Of a stretch of 38,561 nucleotides of DNA, positions 4,935-36,311 are shown piece by piece (position 1 is the first letter of the stretch; each line of letters begins with the position of its first letter). Below the pieces are notes generated by a model that saw nothing but the letters and a program-made list of their open reading frames with translations, had not been told where the DNA came from and ran no database searches. The stretch is from contig JAIRUP010000004.1 in assembly GCA_031254335.1 (NCBI GenBank), positions 1 to 38,561 on the forward strand, read 5' to 3'. The stretch is from Rickettsiales bacterium. Its GTDB lineage: Bacteria; Pseudomonadota; Alphaproteobacteria; Rs-D84. A program made the translations under genes and the position numbers.

Positions 4935-5045
4935 TTTCCCCATTCGGCAATCCGATAAAAGGCTGCCGAATGGGGGCCCCGAAACCCCCCACCGTCCGCC
5001 TGCGCTTCGCGCCGGCGCGACGACTCCCCCACAAGGGGGGAGTTA
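4935..5045. repeat. Paired hairpins: CCCCAT stem plus type C repeat
   Basis: The first hairpin (4936-4976) pairs CCCCATTCGGCA with TGCCGAATGGGG. It is followed by a type C copy (4984-5045) with CCCCCCACC and GGGGGGAG ends around a GC-rich core. The same two-part arrangement recurs after rpsO (31203-31290) with different stem sequences, so the pair behaves as a unit. It may stop transcription between the porin and comF. Confidence 0.8.
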
Positions 5046-6018: not shown

Positions 6019-6020
6019 AG

Positions 6021-6176
6021 GACAAAAAATATAAGTCCACTTTTTCGTTTTCGGTCTATAACACCCGCTTGCTTGGAAAACCGGCTTCGCAGGGGCGGCA
6101 AGCCTAGCGCGCGCCGGTTTTCCCGCGCATCGGGCGTTCTATCCTCGAAAACGCGAGTGGACTAATATTTTTTGAG
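6021..6176 (+). repeat. Type A element, full length, after comF
   Basis: It begins two bases after the comF stop codon. The outer stem is AGTCCAC (6034-6040) with GTGGACT (6157-6163), the conserved stem CGTTTTCG with CGAAAACG, and the inner stem GGAAAACCGGC with GCCGGTTTTCC. The A-run at the left and T-run at the right flank the hairpin, so it can serve as a bidirectional terminator between convergent comF and carD. Confidence 0.9.
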
Positions 6177-6878: not shown

Positions 6879-6934
6879 ACCCCCCACCGAAATTTTCCAT
6901 GAAAATTTCGACTCCCCCGCAAGGGGGGAGTTAA
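6879..6934. repeat. Type C repeat between recA and carD
   Basis: ACCCCCCACC, then an inner hairpin CGAAATTTTC/GAAAATTTCG, then CTCCCCCGCAAGGGGGGAG. It ends three bases before the recA stop codon and could terminate recA transcription. Confidence 0.9.
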
Positions 6935-6937
6935 TCT

Positions 6938-8008
6938 TTATTCCTCGTCGTCATCGTCCGGGTTCGACTGGTCGATGTCCAGCATTTCGTCCGCGATTCC
7001 GCTGGACTTCGCCTTAATCGCCGCAAGCAAGTCCGTCTGGGCTTCCGGGTTGTCTTTCAGCCACTGGCGCGCGTTCGCCTCTCCCTGGCCGATTCTTTGC
7101 GAATTATACGAATAGAACGCGCCGGATTTATCAATCATCCCGAATTTCACGCCCATATCCAAAATTTCCGACACGCGGCTTATACCCTCGCCATACATAA
7201 TCTTGAACTCCACCACGCGGAACGGCGGAGCAAGTTTGTTCTTCACGACCTTGACCCTTGTCTCGTTTCCGACAACCGTTTCCTTGTCCTTTATTTGGCC
7301 TATGCGGCGGATGTCCAGGCGGACCGACGCATAGAATTTAAGCGCGTTGCCGCCGCTGGTCGTTTCCGGCGAGCCGAACATGACCCCGATTTTCATCCTT
7401 ATTTGATTGATGAATATCATAAGCGTATTGCTGCGCGAAACGCTGCCCGCCAATTTTTTCAAGGCTTGCGACATAAGCCGCGCCGTCGTTCCCACAGACG
7501 GGTCGCCGATGTTGCCTTCCAATTCCGACTTCGGGACCAAGGCCGCGACCGAATCAACCACGACCACATCCACCGCCCCAGACTTTATCAGCGTGTCCGC
7601 GATTTCAAGAGCCTGCTCGCCGCTGTCAGGCTGAGAGATAATCAGGCTTTTCACATCCACGCCCAATTTATGCGCATAGTTCGGGTCGAGCGCATTCTCG
7701 GCGTCTATGTAAGCGCAGGTGCCGCCCTTTTTCTGGGCTTCGGCCACCGCGTGCAGGGCCAGCGTCGTTTTGCCAGAGCTTTCAGGGCCGTAGATTTCGA
7801 CGATACGGCCGCGCGGGTAGCCCCCTATGCCCAGCGCGATGTCGAGGCCCAGGGAACCCGTCGATATGCTGTCGATGTTCTGCGTCAGACCGTCGCCCAT
7901 CGTCATAATCGCGTCCTTGCCGAATTCGTTCTTAATCTTCGCCAAGACCGCGTCCAAAACCGAATTTTTCGAGGATGATTTCGTTTCCGAAGTTTTCGCT
8001 TTCGCCAT
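6938..8008 (-). CDS. recA: Recombinase RecA with an atypical L1 loop
   Basis: RecA forms the nucleoprotein filament for homologous recombination and triggers LexA cleavage. The 356-aa product has the Walker [10 protein letters not shown] (about residues 71-79), the typical L2 region ([20 protein letters not shown]) and an acidic C-terminal tail (PDDDDEE). The L1 loop reads [18 protein letters not shown] where most RecA proteins have EGEMGDSHVGLQARLMSQ or similar. The usual DAEHALDP is DAENALDP. These substitutions are at DNA-binding or core positions, yet the rest is well conserved, so the protein is probably functional in a divergent lineage. No clear alphaproteobacterial LexA box was seen upstream. 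Confidence 0.97.
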
Positions 8009-11576: not shown

Positions 11577-11577
11577 G

Positions 11578-11738
11578 GACAAAAAAAGTAAGCGCAATTT
11601 TTCATTTTCGGTCTATATTATCCACTACCGTCGGAAAACGGGTCGTCGCGGCGGCGACCAAGGCCAGACGCCGACCCGTTTTCCTTGGTATTGAATAATC
11701 TATCCTCGAAAATGCGATTGCGCTAAACTTTTTTTGAG
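11578..11738 (+). repeat. Type A element, full length, after virB11
   Basis: It begins one base after the virB11 stop codon. The outer stem is AGCGCAAT (11591-11598) with ATTGCGCT (11717-11724), and the inner stem GGAAAACGGGTCG with CGACCCGTTTTCC. It lies between convergent virB11 and the MFS gene. Confidence 0.92.
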
Positions 11739-11745
11739 TTTATTA

Positions 11746-11811
11746 CCTGGATTCCAGCTTTCGCTGGAATGACGGCGGAGGGGATGTCGGATTAAATCCG
11801 ACCATGACATT
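11746..11811. repeat. Two type B hairpins
   Basis: CCTGGATTCCAGC/GCTGGAATGACGG (11746-11776) and GTCGGATT/AATCCGAC followed by CATGACA (11784-11811), immediately before the MFS stop codon. Confidence 0.85.
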
Positions 11812-15904: not shown

Positions 15905-16160
15905 GCCAAGTGCCGGATTCTGTTGCAAGGCTCCGGCGGGCCCCCGGATGACTATTGCTTATTAGGCAGCCATCGCATATTGAGTGTTATCATTAGCACT
16001 CGTTTTAATCAGCCTTTTATGGAAGCAACCCCAAATGCACGCCGCACTTTTATTGTTCAGGTCGAAACATATGTCATCCCCATAGCTTTTTATTGGTGGA
16101 GATGTGGGGTACCGCCCCCCAGTCCCATAAACCTATTCCGAACGGTATTCAGCATTATCT
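15905..16160 (-). ncRNA. ssrA: tmRNA, circularly permuted two-piece form
   Basis: tmRNA rescues stalled ribosomes and tags the nascent chain for degradation. On the minus strand the acceptor piece comes first and ends CATCTCCACCA (CCA end at 16094). After about 11 bp the coding piece starts with GGGGATGAC (about 16081), and GGGGATG pairs with CATCTCC to rebuild the 7-bp acceptor stem. The tag frame reads ANDNTQYAMAA from 15997 and stops TAATAA (TAA at 15964-15962). The ANDN start and the AA end fit alphaproteobacterial tags. The permuted order is diagnostic for Alphaproteobacteria (also known in some cyanobacteria). The outer ends are approximate, and no convincing promoter was assigned. Confidence 0.92.
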
Positions 16161-16209
16161 CTACATTAAGTAGCAATTCGATTTTAATATATATGACAAA
16201 AAATGCAAG

Positions 16210-16237
16210 AAAAAAAGGGCCGCGGATGCAGCCCTTT
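16210..16237 (-). terminator. Intrinsic terminator of pal
   Basis: On the minus strand AAAGGGC and GCCCTTT close a stem followed by a run of T. It lies about 20 bp after the pal stop codon. Confidence 0.8.
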
Positions 16238-16255: not shown

Positions 16256-16672
16256 TTACTTGTTCACGCGGGTCGTGGTGTTGCGGTTCATCTTCCAGAC
16301 ATCCTCGCCAGTGCCTTTGACGGCCGGACGCGATTTGCCATAGGAGATGGTCTTGATGCGCTTGGCATCAACGCCGTCATCCGTTATGACCTTTTTCGAA
16401 GCGTTCGCGCGGCGCGCGCCCAAAGCCAAGTTGTAGGCTTCGGTTCCGCGCTCGTCGCAGTGACCTTCGATGGTCGCCTTGACATTAGCGTGGTTCTTCA
16501 TGTAAAGGGCCTGACCCTTCAAGTTGTCGCGGGCTTCGCTGGATATGGCGGACGAATCAAAAGCGAAGAACGCTTTCTGGCCGTCGAGTTCAGCGGGTTC
16601 CGTGACGCCGCCGCAAGCAACCAATCCGGCGCATGCAGCAGCCATTGCTGTGTATTTGAACAGTTTCATCAA
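16256..16672 (-). CDS. pal: Peptidoglycan-associated lipoprotein Pal
   Basis: Pal anchors the outer membrane to peptidoglycan as part of the Tol-Pal complex. The 138-aa protein has a lipoprotein signal (MMKLFKYT start, lipobox LVAC, Cys20), a very short linker, then the OmpA-like domain: KAFFAFDSSAISSEARDNL, HANVKATIEGHCDERGTEAY, NLALGARRANA and ISYGKSRPAVKGTGEDVW. The Asp and Arg that grip diaminopimelate are in the CDERG and LGARRA segments. It is shorter than typical Pal because the disordered linker is reduced. tolB and ybgF, usually adjacent, are absent. A good AAGGAGGA ribosome site precedes the start. Confidence 0.95.
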   Translation of the reverse strand: MMKLFKYTAMAAACAGLVACGGVTEPAELDGQKAFFAFDSSAISSEARDNLKGQALYMKNHANVKATIEGHCDERGTEAYNLALGARRANASKKVITDDGVDAKRIKTISYGKSRPAVKGTGEDVWKMNRNTTTRVNK

Positions 16673-16725: not shown

Positions 16726-17550
16726 ATGCAAGATAATTTACAGAAGACTTTATCGGAGTTCGCGGGTGCCGGGATTCTCTTCGAATTGGAGGAAGAAATT
16801 ACCATAAACAAGAAAGAAGCAAGAGGGCAGAAGGAAGAAGGACCCCCCACCGGCGGCTGCGCCGCCGACTCCCCCGCAAGGGGGGAGTTTCCCTTGATAA
16901 TCCCCAAGGCGGAGCCGGTCGGAGGAGCCGCCGTTTTGTCCGAAGCCCGCGCGGCCGCGGCCGCCGCGGGCGATATGGGCGCGCTGCTTGCCGCAATCAA
17001 GGCTTTCGACAGGAGGACGCCGACCGCGAAACTGGCGAAGAATATTGTTCCGCCGAAGACGGCGGAAAAGGAAGAAGGAGGAAGGAAGAAGGAAGAAGGG
17101 CGGATATTGGTCATTACGGACGGGCCGGGGAAGGACGACGACGAGGCGGGCGTCATAATGTCCGGCGAAGGCGGCGCGATGTTCGCCAAGATGGTCGCCG
17201 CCATAGGATTAAATGCCGCGGAGATTTCCGTTTTTCCCGTAGTCTTCCACAAGCTGCCCGGCGACCGCACCCCGACCAACGACGAGATGGCGGTCGGAAA
17301 AGTTTTCTTCGAGCGGTTCGCGGAACTCGCGCCGCCCGAATTTATTCTGACGCTCGGGCAGTCCGCGTTCTCGTTCGCCGTTCCGGGCGGCGGGACTTTG
17401 GTGCGCGGGCGCGGGAAAGTTTTCGAGGCTTATGGCGCGAAGGTTGTTCCGACTTTCGGGCTGAAATTGCTTATGGCGAAGCCCGAGCATAAAAAAGACG
17501 CCTGGGCCGATTTGCAGAAGTTCAAGGAAGTAATAGGACAAAAAATATAA
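16726..17550 (+). CDS. Degenerate uracil-DNA glycosylase family protein with three repeat-derived segments
   Basis: The C-terminal 150 residues follow the family-4 UDG layout: ILVITDGPGKDDDEAGVIMSG (normally GEAPG...G.PFVG), then FPVVFHKLPGDRTPTNDE, FILTLGQSAF, PTFGLKLLM (normally TFHPAYLL) and DAWADLQKF. The Fe-S cysteines of family 4 are missing, and the catalytic GEAPG and HP motifs are altered, so activity as a glycosylase is doubtful. Residues about 29-39 (type D tract), 39-55 (type C hairpin) and 115-126 (second type D tract) are repeat-encoded and in frame. The last residues GQKI and the stop come from a type A element. It may be a decaying gene or a repurposed structural relative. Confidence 0.75.
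   Translation: MQDNLQKTLSEFAGAGILFELEEEITINKKEARGQKEEGPPTGGCAADSPARGEFPLIIPKAEPVGGAAVLSEARAAAAAAGDMGALLAAIKAFDRRTPTAKLAKNIVPPKTAEKEEGGRKKEEGRILVITDGPGKDDDEAGVIMSGEGGAMFAKMVAAIGLNAAEISVFPVVFHKLPGDRTPTNDEMAVGKVFFERFAELAPPEFILTLGQSAFSFAVPGGGTLVRGRGKVFEAYGAKVVPTFGLKLLMAKPEHKKDAWADLQKFKEVIGQKI
16810..16890. repeat. Type D tract joined to a type C hairpin, inside the UDG-like gene
   Basis: AGAAAGAAGCAAGAGGGCAG (16810 onward) runs into ACCCCCCACC (16842), an inner stem CGGCGGC/GCCGCCG and CTCCCCCGCAAGGGGGGAG. The two families are fused end to end, as also seen near 9946. Confidence 0.85.
17068..17101. repeat. Type D purine tract inside the UDG-like gene
   Basis: GGAAGAAGGAGGAAGGAAGA and following units, translated in frame as an EKEEGGRKKEEGR-like segment. 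Confidence 0.8.
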
Positions 17551-20786: not shown

Positions 20787-21749
20787 TTAAAAATATTCAT
20801 TCAGCAAATCTTTCAATAATTGCATTTCACCCGGAAGGGGGGAGTGCAGCTTTATGGGCTTGCCGGTTATCGGGTGCGCGAACTCCAATGTTCCAGCGTG
20901 GAGCATTTGGCCGCCGGTCCAATTTTCCATGAAATCGAGGAGCGGGCCGGGATGGACGGATTGGATTTTATGGCGCGCGCCGCTGCCGTAGGTATTGTCC
21001 CCGACAAGGGGGAAGCCGTGCGTGGATAAATGGACGCGGATTTGGTGCGTGCGGCCCGTCAAGAGGCGCGCCTTGATTTCCGCCACGCCCGCCCGCGGCC
21101 AGACAGCCCGCGTTTCGGCGAGCGTCGTCGCGGGCTTGCCGCCGATTTTGACCAGGGCCATTTTCTGCCGGTTCTTTTTGCTGCGCCGGATGTTCCCCGA
21201 AATCTCCGCGCTTTCCCAAGAGGGAACGCCCCACACGAACGCCGTATATTCGCGTTTCAAGTCGTGCCGGGAAAACATTTCCGAGAGCTTGGCGAAGGCA
21301 GTATCCGTCTTGGCCGCGACCAGGATTCCCGAGGTGTCCTTGTCGAGGCGATGGACTATGCCCGGGCGGAGATTGTCCCCGCCGCCCGCGAGCGCGGTAT
21401 GCGACAAAAGCATTTGGACGAATGTTTCGGTTTCCCGTCCCGCGCCCGGATGGGTTGCGATTCCGCGGGGCTTTACGGCGGCGATGATGTGGGGGTCTTC
21501 GTAGAGGATGTTCAGCTTCGACCCCCCACCGAAACCGCGAAGCGGTTTCGACTCCCCCGCAGGGAGGGAGTTAATTATAATTTCGAGGGTGTCGCCGGGG
21601 CGGGCGGGCGCAGACCATTTCGCGGGCTTTCCGTTCAATGTCATTTCCATCTTTTGGATTTTGGAGCGCGACAGTTCCGGCATAAGCGACTGCGCCGCCG
21701 CGTCCAGGCGGGGGAAGGGTTCGGTAATGGCGAAGTTTTTTTTATTCAT
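20787..21749 (-). CDS. Ribosomal large-subunit pseudouridine synthase, RluD/RluC family, with a type C insertion
   Basis: Pseudouridine synthases of this family modify 23S rRNA. The 320-aa protein has an S4-like N-terminus (RLDAAAQSLMPELSRSKIQK), the catalytic HRLDKDTSG motif with Asp136, LTGRTHQIRVHLSTHGFPLVGDNTYG, and the usual end IKLHSPLPGEMQLLKDLL. Residues 61-78 (SLPAGESKPLRGFGGGSK) are encoded by a type C repeat (21521-21571). It falls between the S4 domain and the catalytic domain (NILYEDPHIIAAVKPRG), where a flexible linker can accept extra residues. RluD versus RluC cannot be settled here. Another type C copy lies just upstream of the start. Confidence 0.92.
   Translation of the reverse strand: MNKKNFAITEPFPRLDAAAQSLMPELSRSKIQKMEMTLNGKPAKWSAPARPGDTLEIIINSLPAGESKPLRGFGGGSKLNILYEDPHIIAAVKPRGIATHPGAGRETETFVQMLLSHTALAGGGDNLRPGIVHRLDKDTSGILVAAKTDTAFAKLSEMFSRHDLKREYTAFVWGVPSWESAEISGNIRRSKKNRQKMALVKIGGKPATTLAETRAVWPRAGVAEIKARLLTGRTHQIRVHLSTHGFPLVGDNTYGSGARHKIQSVHPGPLLDFMENWTGGQMLHAGTLEFAHPITGKPIKLHSPLPGEMQLLKDLLNEYF
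21521..21571. repeat. Type C repeat inside the RluD-type gene
   Basis: ACCCCCCACC, inner stem CGAAACCGC/GCGGTTTCG, then CTCCCCCGCAGGGAGGGAG. It is translated in frame on the minus strand. Confidence 0.9.
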
Positions 21750-21760
21750 AATTTTTTTTG

Positions 21761-21813
21761 ACCCCCCACCAAAAACGGCAGAGCCGTTTTTGGCTCCCCC
21801 ACAAGGGGGGAGC
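21761..21813. repeat. Type C repeat upstream of the RluD-type gene
   Basis: ACCCCCCACC, inner stem CAAAAACGGC/GCCGTTTTTG, then CTCCCCCACAAGGGGGGAG. It lies between two codirectional minus-strand genes. Confidence 0.92.
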
Positions 21814-31202: not shown

Positions 31203-31290
31203 TTTCCCCATAAACCCAACCCATAAAAGGGCGGGTTTATGGGGGCCCAACCCACCCCGCCGCTTCGCGGCACCCCTCCCCGGGAGGGGA
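31203..31290. repeat. Paired hairpins between rpsO and pnp
   Basis: The first stem CCCCATAAACCC pairs with GGGTTTATGGGG. Then a CCACCCC...CCCCTCCCCGGGAGGGGA unit follows with a CCGCTTCGCGG core. The layout is the same as at 4935-5045. It may attenuate rpsO-pnp transcription or mark an RNase site, as the rpsO-pnp spacer does in E. coli. Confidence 0.8.
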
Positions 31291-33904: not shown

Positions 33905-35050
33905 ATGTCTAAAACACACACATCAGAAACCTTGGAATTCGACTTGGGTAAATTCCTGGAAAACCACAAGGACGAAATCAAGGATACAAAGCCCGTCGTC
34001 CGCGTCCCATACAATGTCCATTCGTCGCGCCTGGTCGAAGTGTATATCGAAAGGGACTGCTTTATCGTCAATATCGACACCATGGAAGAGGTGGTTTCCC
34101 CCGGCAGTCTGAACCATGAAATAACCGACCATGGAATCATAGTCGCCGGCGCAGCAGGAAAAATCATGTATGACCACAAGGGAAAGCGCATCGAATTCCC
34201 GGACGGCATGAGTCCGGTCAGCCCGAAAGGCTATAATTCCTCGATGCCGCAATGCATGAAACACAACATAATCCCGGTCGGCCGCGACGGCAGCGATAAA
34301 ATCCAATTGCTTAGAATGTCGGATTTGAAGCCGCTCACCCCGGACGCCGTTCCAATGGACTTCGACATGTCGTGCCATCCAGAAGCCGGACTTTTGACAT
34401 TAAGCGGAAGGTCTTTCGACAGCATGTATTTCCAATATCCCTCGCTTGAAAAATTCGAAGCACCCGCGGGGATTCCGGCGAACAGGGGATTTTCCGTGTA
34501 TTACAAAACCTTCGCCGTGATGGGCGAGCAGTTCGGGATGGAAAAACTGGCTGAAATCGCCAAATACAAGCGCGAATACGGCGGCGCTTACGTATGGGAC
34601 ATGAAAACAGGAAAAATACTTCTTCAATCCGACTATGTCTTCGTCGACAACAGGAACTTCATAACACTGGACGATTCCGGCCTTATGCGGGTGTTCAAGC
34701 ACGACAGGACCAAAAAGCCGGCCATAACACACGAAATCAATCCGAATAAAGGATTCTATCCGCAGGGCGTCAACAAATGCACCGAATTCCACACCGCGGA
34801 CGGCCGAATAATCGGATACGACTTGAAGACTTTGCAAAAACTATACGAGGTTTCGGAAGAATCCTACAATTCCATAGATTGGAACAACGGCGAAATGAAG
34901 GCATACAAGAAAAACGGAACATACGATTTGCTGGACAGGAACGGCGCGGTCGTCAGGTCCGGCGTGAATCCGAAAAAGCTGGATATGCGCGGAGCCGGAT
35001 ACGCCGACGGATACAAAATATTCGTAAATCGAATCGGCAACGGAAGATGA
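33905..35050 (+). CDS. Unknown soluble protein with beta-rich repeats, 381 aa
   Basis: I do not recognise this protein. There is no signal peptide or transmembrane segment. It is rich in beta-forming short segments with recurring GXXXXYDXKT-like units (GKIMYDHKGKRIEFPDG, GAYVWDMKTGKILLQSDYVF, GRIIGYDLKTLQKLYEV, GTYDLLDRNGAVV), which suggests a beta-propeller or similar solenoid, as in WD40/PQQ-like folds. The start at 33905 follows GGAGG at proper distance; an open frame upstream from 33842 lacks a ribosome site. The stop overlaps the rlmN start (ATGA), so the two are translationally coupled. Confidence 0.8.
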   Translation: MSKTHTSETLEFDLGKFLENHKDEIKDTKPVVRVPYNVHSSRLVEVYIERDCFIVNIDTMEEVVSPGSLNHEITDHGIIVAGAAGKIMYDHKGKRIEFPDGMSPVSPKGYNSSMPQCMKHNIIPVGRDGSDKIQLLRMSDLKPLTPDAVPMDFDMSCHPEAGLLTLSGRSFDSMYFQYPSLEKFEAPAGIPANRGFSVYYKTFAVMGEQFGMEKLAEIAKYKREYGGAYVWDMKTGKILLQSDYVFVDNRNFITLDDSGLMRVFKHDRTKKPAITHEINPNKGFYPQGVNKCTEFHTADGRIIGYDLKTLQKLYEVSEESYNSIDWNNGEMKAYKKNGTYDLLDRNGAVVRSGVNPKKLDMRGAGYADGYKIFVNRIGNGR

Positions 35051-36168
35051 ACAAAGAAGTCCTGTTTGGAAAGACTTTGGCGGAAATCGAGGCTTTGGCC
35101 GCGGGGTTGGGCGAGCCGAAGTTCCGCGCCAGGCAAATCATGGACTGGCTTGACAAGGGCGTCGCTTCCTTCGCCGAGATGAAGAACCTTCCCGCCGGGC
35201 TGCGCGCCAAACTGGGCGATGCCGCCGCCGTATTGCCCTGCGAAATCGTGAAAGTTTTGGAGTCCAAGGACGGCGGGACGAAGAAGCTGCTGCTGGGGTT
35301 TTCGACCCCCCACCAAAACCGCGGGGCGGTTTTGACTCCCCCGCAAGGGGGGAGCTGTCTTATAGAGACGGTGCTTATGCGGACGAGGTATGGGAATTCC
35401 GTTTGCGTGTCCAGCCAGGCCGGCTGCGCGATGGGCTGCGCTTTTTGCGCTTCCACTTTACGCGGGTTTTCCAGGAATTTGACGGCAAATGAAATGATGG
35501 CGCAGGTTGCCGCCGCACAGAGCTTATTAGTCAACGAGCGCGTGTCCCATGTCGTTATCATGGGCTCCGGCGAGCCGCTTCTCAATCTTGACAATGTTTT
35601 GGAATTTATCGAAAAGCTGAATACCCCCCACCAAAACCGCGGGGCGGTTTTGACTCCCCCGCAAGGGGGGAGTTGCCGGGGCGGAATTTCATATCGCAAG
35701 ATTACCCTTTCAACCTGCGGCGTCGTTCCCGGTATCGACCGCCTGACCGAATGGGGGAAGCCCATCAATCTCGCTTTGTCGCTTCACGCGCCCGACGACG
35801 AACTGCGCTCGCGCATTATGCCAATCAACGCCAAATATCCAATCGCCGAAGTCATGGCCGCAACCGACCGATGGCAGGCCGCGACGAAACGACAGCTTAC
35901 CGCCGAATACATCGTTCTGGGCGGCGTCAACGACAGCGCCGGGCATGCCGAGGGTCTTGCCGATTTAATCGGCTCGCGCGATGTTTTCGTGAATCTTATT
36001 CCCTTCAATCCCGTCGCCGAGCGCGAGTTCATCGCCCCGTCCGGCAACGCCGTTCACCGAATGAAGGACGCCTTGGAAGCGCGGAAGATTCCCTGCGCGA
36101 TTCGTTTCGAGAGGGGAGCGGATATTCAGTCGGCTTGCGGGCAGTTAAGGAATGGACAAAAAATATAA
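35047..36168 (+). CDS. rlmN: 23S rRNA A2503 / tRNA A37 methyltransferase RlmN with two same-sequence type C insertions
   Basis: RlmN is a radical-SAM enzyme that methylates adenine C2 in 23S rRNA and some tRNAs. The 373-aa protein keeps the radical-SAM cysteines in GCAMGCAFC (Cys127, 131, 134), MGSGEPLLNLDNVLEFI, LSTCGVVPGI, LALSLHAPDDELRSRIMPIN, and the C-terminal catalytic Cys in DIQSACGQL. Residues 87-103 and 193-209 have the same sequence, TPHQNRGAVLTPPQGGS. They are encoded by 52-bp type C repeats that differ only in the last base. They interrupt the region before the SAM cluster and the loop before YRKITLSTCG. The last residues GQKI and the stop come from a type A element. Confidence 0.95.
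   Translation: MNKEVLFGKTLAEIEALAAGLGEPKFRARQIMDWLDKGVASFAEMKNLPAGLRAKLGDAAAVLPCEIVKVLESKDGGTKKLLLGFSTPHQNRGAVLTPPQGGSCLIETVLMRTRYGNSVCVSSQAGCAMGCAFCASTLRGFSRNLTANEMMAQVAAAQSLLVNERVSHVVIMGSGEPLLNLDNVLEFIEKLNTPHQNRGAVLTPPQGGSCRGGISYRKITLSTCGVVPGIDRLTEWGKPINLALSLHAPDDELRSRIMPINAKYPIAEVMAATDRWQAATKRQLTAEYIVLGGVNDSAGHAEGLADLIGSRDVFVNLIPFNPVAEREFIAPSGNAVHRMKDALEARKIPCAIRFERGADIQSACGQLRNGQKI
35305..35356. repeat. Type C repeat 1 in rlmN
   Basis: ACCCCCCACC, inner stem CAAAACCGC/GCGGTTTTG, then CTCCCCCGCAAGGGGGGAG. It is identical to the copy at 35623 except for the last base. Confidence 0.95.
35623..35674. repeat. Type C repeat 2 in rlmN
   Basis: Same sequence and frame as the copy at 35305, which suggests a recent duplication or conversion within one gene. 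Confidence 0.95.
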
Positions 36169-36311
36169 GGCCAATTTTTCGTTTTCGGGCTAAATCGCCC
36201 ACTACGCGGCGAAAAGCCGCCTTCGCGGCGCGACAAGGCCAGCGCGCGGCGGCTTTTCTTGGTATTGAACGATTTATCCTCGAAAACGCGATTGGCCTTA
36301 TATTTTTTGAG
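36155..36311 (+). repeat. Type A element, full length, at the rlmN stop codon
   Basis: GGACAAAAAATATAA supplies GQKI and the stop, exactly as in the UDG-like gene. The outer stem is AGGCCAAT (36168-36175) with ATTGGCCT (36291-36298), and the inner stem GAAAAGCCGCC with GGCGGCTTTTC. Confidence 0.92.

Follow-up and report, generated by a model that had tools for sequence, protein, structure and literature searches.

How did a single rlmN reading frame come to carry almost the same stretch of sequence twice, at two different places, and still encode a recognizable enzyme? The gene lies in the window (the whole 38,561-nt stretch of DNA analysed here; Table 1), and its product matches Pfam RlmN_N and Radical_SAM as well as PDB entries 6fz6 and 3rf9. 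A Foldseek search with the RlmN model returned 6fz6 (E 5e-37), and the CxxxCxxC motif, the mechanistic cysteines and the RlmN fold are all present. Cys 120, 127, 131, 134 and 364 are invariant in an alignment of 20 RlmN homologues, which bears out the first-pass annotation, where the catalytic cysteines were called intact and two near-identical insertions were placed at coordinates that are accurate to one or two bases. The two repeats (35305-35357 and 35623-35675) belong to a 53-nt family, are 98% identical and are spaced 318 nt apart. They had been described as 52 bp, identical but for the last base; they do share a 50-nt core (35305-35354 and 35623-35672) after which copy 1 has C where copy 2 has T, with the amino acid unchanged (Ser, AGC/AGT), but TG follows in both and the family measures 53 nt. 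Both copies are read in the same frame and encode TPHQNRGAVLTPPQGGSC, so that the same residues are indeed added twice, with 17-18 residues common to both. In the AlphaFold model, site 1 lies in the turn of a beta-hairpin and site 2 in a loop joining a helix to a strand; the inserts (residues 88-101 and 199-211) have pLDDT values below 50, a stretch at 136-141 and the C-terminus are also low, and most of the body is confidently predicted. RlmN with both inserts is probably still active, and the inserts are probably near-neutral. No known RNA family in Rfam matched in the rlmN region. Elsewhere in the window (15909-16212, minus strand), matches to alphaproteobacterial tmRNA overlap others to permuted (two-piece) tmRNA, with no ARAGORN call.

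Table 1. Positions of rlmN, its two inserts and the related elements in the window.
Feature	Position	Strand	Basis or remark
Type C element, intergenic	4984..5042	+	
Type C element, just past the 3' end of a 356-aa minus-strand ORF (6938-8008)	6879..6930	+	
Type C element	16842..16887	+	
Type C element, read in frame within the minus-strand gene for a pseudouridine synthase (20787-21749)	21521..21570	+	G017: other palindrome, same loop
Type C element, intergenic, G-C version of closing pair	21761..21812	+	
Second triplex stem family CCCCTCC/GGGGTGG, polarity as type C copies	31252..31289	-	
rlmN, 373 aa, dual-specificity 23S rRNA A2503/tRNA methyltransferase with two in-frame inserts	35047..36168	+	Pfam, PDB, translation
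Copy 1 (site 1), C-rich orientation on coding strand	35305..35355	+	between beta strands 78-85 and 104-113
Copy 1, ACCCCCCACC; complement GGTGGGGGGT is the putative reverse-Hoogsteen third strand	35305..35314	+	sequence; sequence-blind finder
Copy 1, inner hairpin CAAAACCGC-GGG-GCGGTTTTG (variable; loop 2 in the triplex layout)	35314..35334	+	only in the RlmN pair
Copy 1, conserved hairpin ACTCCCCC-GCAAG-GGGGGAGC	35335..35355	+	
Copy 2 (site 2)	35623..35673	+	between helix 177-192 and strand 219-223
Copy 2, third-strand complement ACCCCCCACC	35623..35632	+	sequence; sequence-blind finder
Copy 2, inner hairpin, same as that of copy 1	35632..35652	+	
Copy 2, conserved hairpin ACTCCCCC-GCAAG-GGGGGAGT	35653..35673	+	

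The nearest congener, Rickettsiales bacterium Coa324_bin6 (G017), has an RlmN that is 79% identical and lacks both inserts, reading LLLDF-GDAE-IESV and EKLN-ER-ISYRK at the sites that hold 20 and 21 residues here; by a count made on the alignment by eye, site 1 has gained a net 16 residues and site 2 a net 19. Both inserts are also absent from most RlmN sequences aligned across the family. Their absence from the nearest congener indicates that the rlmN repeats are insertions and not an assembly duplication, and the copies are lineage-specific. A second congener, G004, has other repeats in both loops of its RlmN (72% identical over the best segment), and Alphaproteobacteria bacterium Nt197P3bin125 (G005), from another genus, has site 1 filled by a third repeat, present in frame as an inverted pair. 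The rlmN coding strand is the G-rich strand in G004 and the C-rich strand here, and the main G004 repeat family, with 161 matches in G004, has none in the genome under study. In the rlmN of a more distant relative (G003, L141), two near-identical inserts (NEPPSLCALRPST) occupy two other loops, in which the triplex layout described below was not seen by eye.

The same loops are also shared by differing palindromes of congeners in DnaX, UvrD, pseudouridine synthase, MtaB, Der, TsaD, RsmE, FtsW, PriA and PolA, and 20 of the 53 palindrome clusters in congener orthologues lie within 15 residues of a site used here, compared with 4.2 expected under uniform placement, an enrichment that is diluted by chance hairpins among the 53. 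Such co-occupancy could also have arisen if the loops had been occupied ancestrally and the elements later replaced in place, by nested insertion and deletion or by recombination between elements. The very high frequency with which different families occupy the same loops in three congeners would fit such a history, as would the nested or chimeric elements found in TsaD of G017 and at C4:52179, C8:2915 and C13:9675 of the genome under study. In RlmN, however, the sites are empty in G017 and most of the family, site 1 of G005 is filled by an inverted pair, and the copies here and in G004 are oppositely oriented relative to the gene, which fits independent insertion, at least in RlmN. The evidence from the RlmN loops favours repeated insertion over replacement of an older element, and we regard ancestral occupancy as rather unlikely.

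The inserts are part of a dispersed family. With up to three mismatches allowed, the 750-kb genome of this uncultured alphaproteobacterium contains 68 copies of the core hairpin compared with 0 occurrences of a reversed control, so its recurrence is not due to chance. This genome is a draft of 14 contigs (92.8% complete), and its listing, which leaves out contig C10, parts of C6 (about 72 kb as N) and parts of C13, contains about 60 copies of the element, here called type C, each of about 46-60 nt. In-frame copies are present in approximately 20 core genes, several of them named from Pfam hits and sequence, including those for MnmG, DnaX, UvrD, FtsW, transketolase and HemW, with MtaB, PriA, Der, TsaD, PolA and RsmE as further carriers. 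The first-pass annotation overlooked that the rlmN element is one of about 60 polar repeats with triplex architecture, and that the elements of other lineages use the same loops. Genes for RNA modification are frequent among the carriers (MnmG, MtaB, RlmN, pseudouridine synthase, RsmE and TsaD). Four of the six Radical_SAM genes detected hold type C elements (G000:C8:15414-16592, C8:42077-43363, C1:70248-71339 and window:35047-36168, where G000 is the genome under study); the RlmN gene and the MtaB-like gene have two each, and a second element (16472-16522) is situated in or beside the end of the HemW-like gene.

Two other kinds of repeat were observed in the window. 'Type B' repeats of about 150 nt (GACAAAAAATATAAG...), with long terminal complementarity, are located at 6020-6175, 11577-11740 and 36156-36310, just downstream of genes, rlmN among them. 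'Type A' repeats (ATTCCAGC...GCTGGAATGACG), at 1-130, 540-770 and 11740-11800, resemble CGTC-tagged REPs, and in G017 they fill loops (DnaX, TsaD) that are taken by type C here. Type C is interrupted by type A in the chimeric or nested elements listed above (the G017 TsaD example being L169), and these are present as several near-identical copies.

The consensus over about 60 copies comprises ACCCCCCACC, a variable hairpin, and (A/G)CTCCCCC-GCAA-GGGGGGAG(T/C), in which the closing pair is usually A-T or G-C together. Read on the complementary strand, the order is C-rich arm, G-rich arm, hairpin and G-rich tail. The tail, GTGGGGG, is neither the complement nor a repeat of the arm GGGGGAG but its mirror image with A changed to T, as would fit a reverse-Hoogsteen third strand in a class II intrastrand triplex. 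A finder that specified the class II layout and no fixed sequence, with a loop 2 of 7-45 nt, returned 56 hits in the genome under study, 205 in G004, 19 in the G017 stretches and 0 in shuffled sequence; at a loop 2 of 1-6 nt it gave no hits. Nearly all hits fall into four stem families (CTCCCCC|GTGGGGG, CCCCTCC|GGGGTGG, CCCCTTC|GGGGTAG and CTCCTCC|GAGGTGG), all of which follow the mirror rule, combining a pyrimidine arm, a complementary purine arm and an antiparallel mirror third strand (G.GC, A.AT or T.AT). Inner stems of 5 bp or longer are found in 48 of 56 loops here (6 when shuffled) and in 87 of 205 in G004 (7 when shuffled). The sequence of the element would in principle allow one of its DNA strands to form a class II intrastrand triplex.

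The elements are also strongly polar. Single copies agree with the orientation prevailing on their contig in 44 of 45 cases for CTCCCCC in the genome under study, 111 of 113 for CCCCTTC and 34 of 34 for CCCCTCC in G004, and different stem families agree contig by contig. Elements of one orientation sit in genes of both directions on a single contig, so gene direction does not account for the polarity. On contigs with clear skew, the G-rich strand is the strand of positive GC skew (51 of 60 by local masked skew); contig C7 of G004, where skew is near 0, and C5, C11 and C12 of the genome under study do not follow the sign. The one-way orientation within nearly every contig hints at spread through DNA replication, and the natural reading of contig orientation together with a weak GC skew is that replication would set the orientation, with the G-rich strand on the lagging-strand template. 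Polarity might instead be acquired after insertion, if symmetric inverted pairs (MITE-like, about 120 nt) lost one arm according to fork direction. Inverted pairs do occur in G004, G005 and G202, and partial deletion of palindromic motif pairs has been described (Holder et al., PMC4666352), but the flanks of single copies have no clear remnant of a second arm and the dominant G004 family consists almost entirely of singles, and we therefore consider this route unlikely. On contigs C4 and C15 of G004, the CTCCTCC family is found mainly as such inverted pairs, unlike the polar singles of the other families. It is less probable still that the elements are selected polar signals, in the manner of FtsK-orienting KOPS or Chi sites, and not selfish DNA: the G-rich strand keeps its polarity over long chromosome stretches in two families at once, as such signals might, yet the sequences differ among congeners (68 copies of the family here, where the main G004 family is absent), the inner hairpins vary, and a 50-nt folded unit would be more than a short recognition motif needs.

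Within this dispersed family, the rlmN pair stands out by its inner stem. The stem CAAAACCGCGGGGCGGTTTTG was found in the rlmN pair only, in a search of four congeneric genomes, and the nearest other copy has 3 mismatches over the 32-nt query; other type C copies have the different inner stems quoted for them by the first-pass annotation. Since the stem is confined to the pair, one of the two copies probably descends from its partner or from a single donor, and on this sequence evidence a recent common origin is likely. Recent local copying, as had been proposed, is plausible for this lineage-specific pair but not shown as a general rule. In the genome under study the elements are closely spaced more often than expected (11 gaps below 700 nt, compared with 2.9), and one of its 11 close pairs, the rlmN pair itself, has a common inner stem (permutation P about 0.02). 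In G004, the figure is one in 15, about chance level, and since close pairs there are no more alike than chance, local homogenization as a general rule was rejected. Gene conversion had also been suggested earlier; in a form that takes in the flanks it was rejected because identity ends at the element borders, which indicates that the element itself was copied without its flanks. That the pair is an artefact of a draft, probably metagenome-assembled genome, might be suspected from 14 contigs and short repeats with many near-identical copies, but is scarcely credible when the flanks are unrelated, the reading frame around each copy is unique and intact and both loops are independently occupied in G004, and assembly duplication was rejected on these grounds.

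The closest known counterpart of the layout is the class II intrastrand triplex motif TM_ECO, or BoxC/PIT, of sequence CCCTCNCCC-N3-6-GGGNGAGGG-N3-GGGNGAGGG, which was seen to form a triplex in vitro, though none was seen in vivo (Holder et al. 2015, PMC4666352). Both have a C-rich arm, a loop, a G-rich arm, a second loop and a mirror-matched G-rich third strand, and both are dispersed, high-copy repeats that are unequal between close relatives. In TM_ECO, loop 2 is 3 nt and the published search covered 1-6 nt (ITxF), whereas here it is 7-45 nt, often with a hairpin, and the stems differ. Furthermore, TM_ECO is reported to be intergenic in every case and to show no strand bias in E. coli (PMC4666352), unlike the intragenic and polar copies described here. 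In their coding context, the elements recall the palindromic elements of Rickettsia and Wolbachia (RPE/WPE), in-frame palindromic repeats of housekeeping genes in small alphaproteobacterial genomes, which lie in solvent-exposed loops and of which different RPE groups have been reported at or near the same loci in orthologues (PMC3767692). By description, both are dispersed palindromic repeats inserted in frame into otherwise intact genes; the present elements differ in length (about 50 nt compared with 100-150 nt), in triplex layout, in near-uniform orientation within contigs and in that congeners and a further genus fill one loop with different families. CGTC- and GTAG-tagged REPs are short palindromes, some of them intragenic, including two in one gene, and many lie in replication and repair genes; no transposase is known for the CGTC type (Di Nocera et al. 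2013, PMC3733652). The type C consensus has no CGTC or GTAG foot and has a third strand. The inverted pairs of about 120 nt in congeners are like REPIN or MITE structures, although most copies here are single and polar. In the literature searched, mostly without subscription papers, no repeat was found to combine a hairpin-loop triplex layout with in-frame insertion and near-uniform orientation, and among polar palindromic or triplex repeats no closer match emerged than those of these three reports (PMC4666352, PMC3767692, PMC3733652).

Taken together, our data suggest that the rlmN inserts are probably dispersed, species-specific, non-coding mobile repeats with a triplex layout, oriented by the replication fork and filtered into loops. 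The repeat, most likely non-autonomous, couples a hairpin of C-rich and G-rich arms to a variable hairpin and a mirror third strand rich in G, and its foldable strand would be copied or inserted while single-stranded on the lagging-strand template, whereby its orientation would be fixed by the fork. Selection would purge protein-breaking insertions, which could explain why survivors are found in disordered surface loops, and the few tolerant loops would be hit repeatedly, in each lineage by the element family active there; in RlmN itself, one copy would recently have given rise to the other. A Y1 (RAYT) transposase (PF01797) was absent from the genome under study (92.8% complete), G001 and G017, with one partial hit in G004, and an RVT_1 reverse transcriptase was likewise absent from the genome under study. 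Neither was therefore retained as the mover, and the search yielded no mobilizing enzyme. Across species the loops are too diverged to place the element ends exactly, and for this reason no target-site duplication is shown. We suggest, tentatively, a broader possibility: a class of mobile DNA defined by folding as a triplex around a hairpin and not by sequence, which would insert, in an orientation set by the fork, from the single-stranded template of the lagging strand and would rewrite the same surface loops in core enzymes over and over.

Triplex motifs and protein-coding palindromes, known separately, are joined here in one element, and its near-perfect orientation opens replication-linked spread to test. 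Loops that are filled time after time provide a natural map of the positions at which proteins tolerate insertion, and a case of selfish DNA extending proteins.
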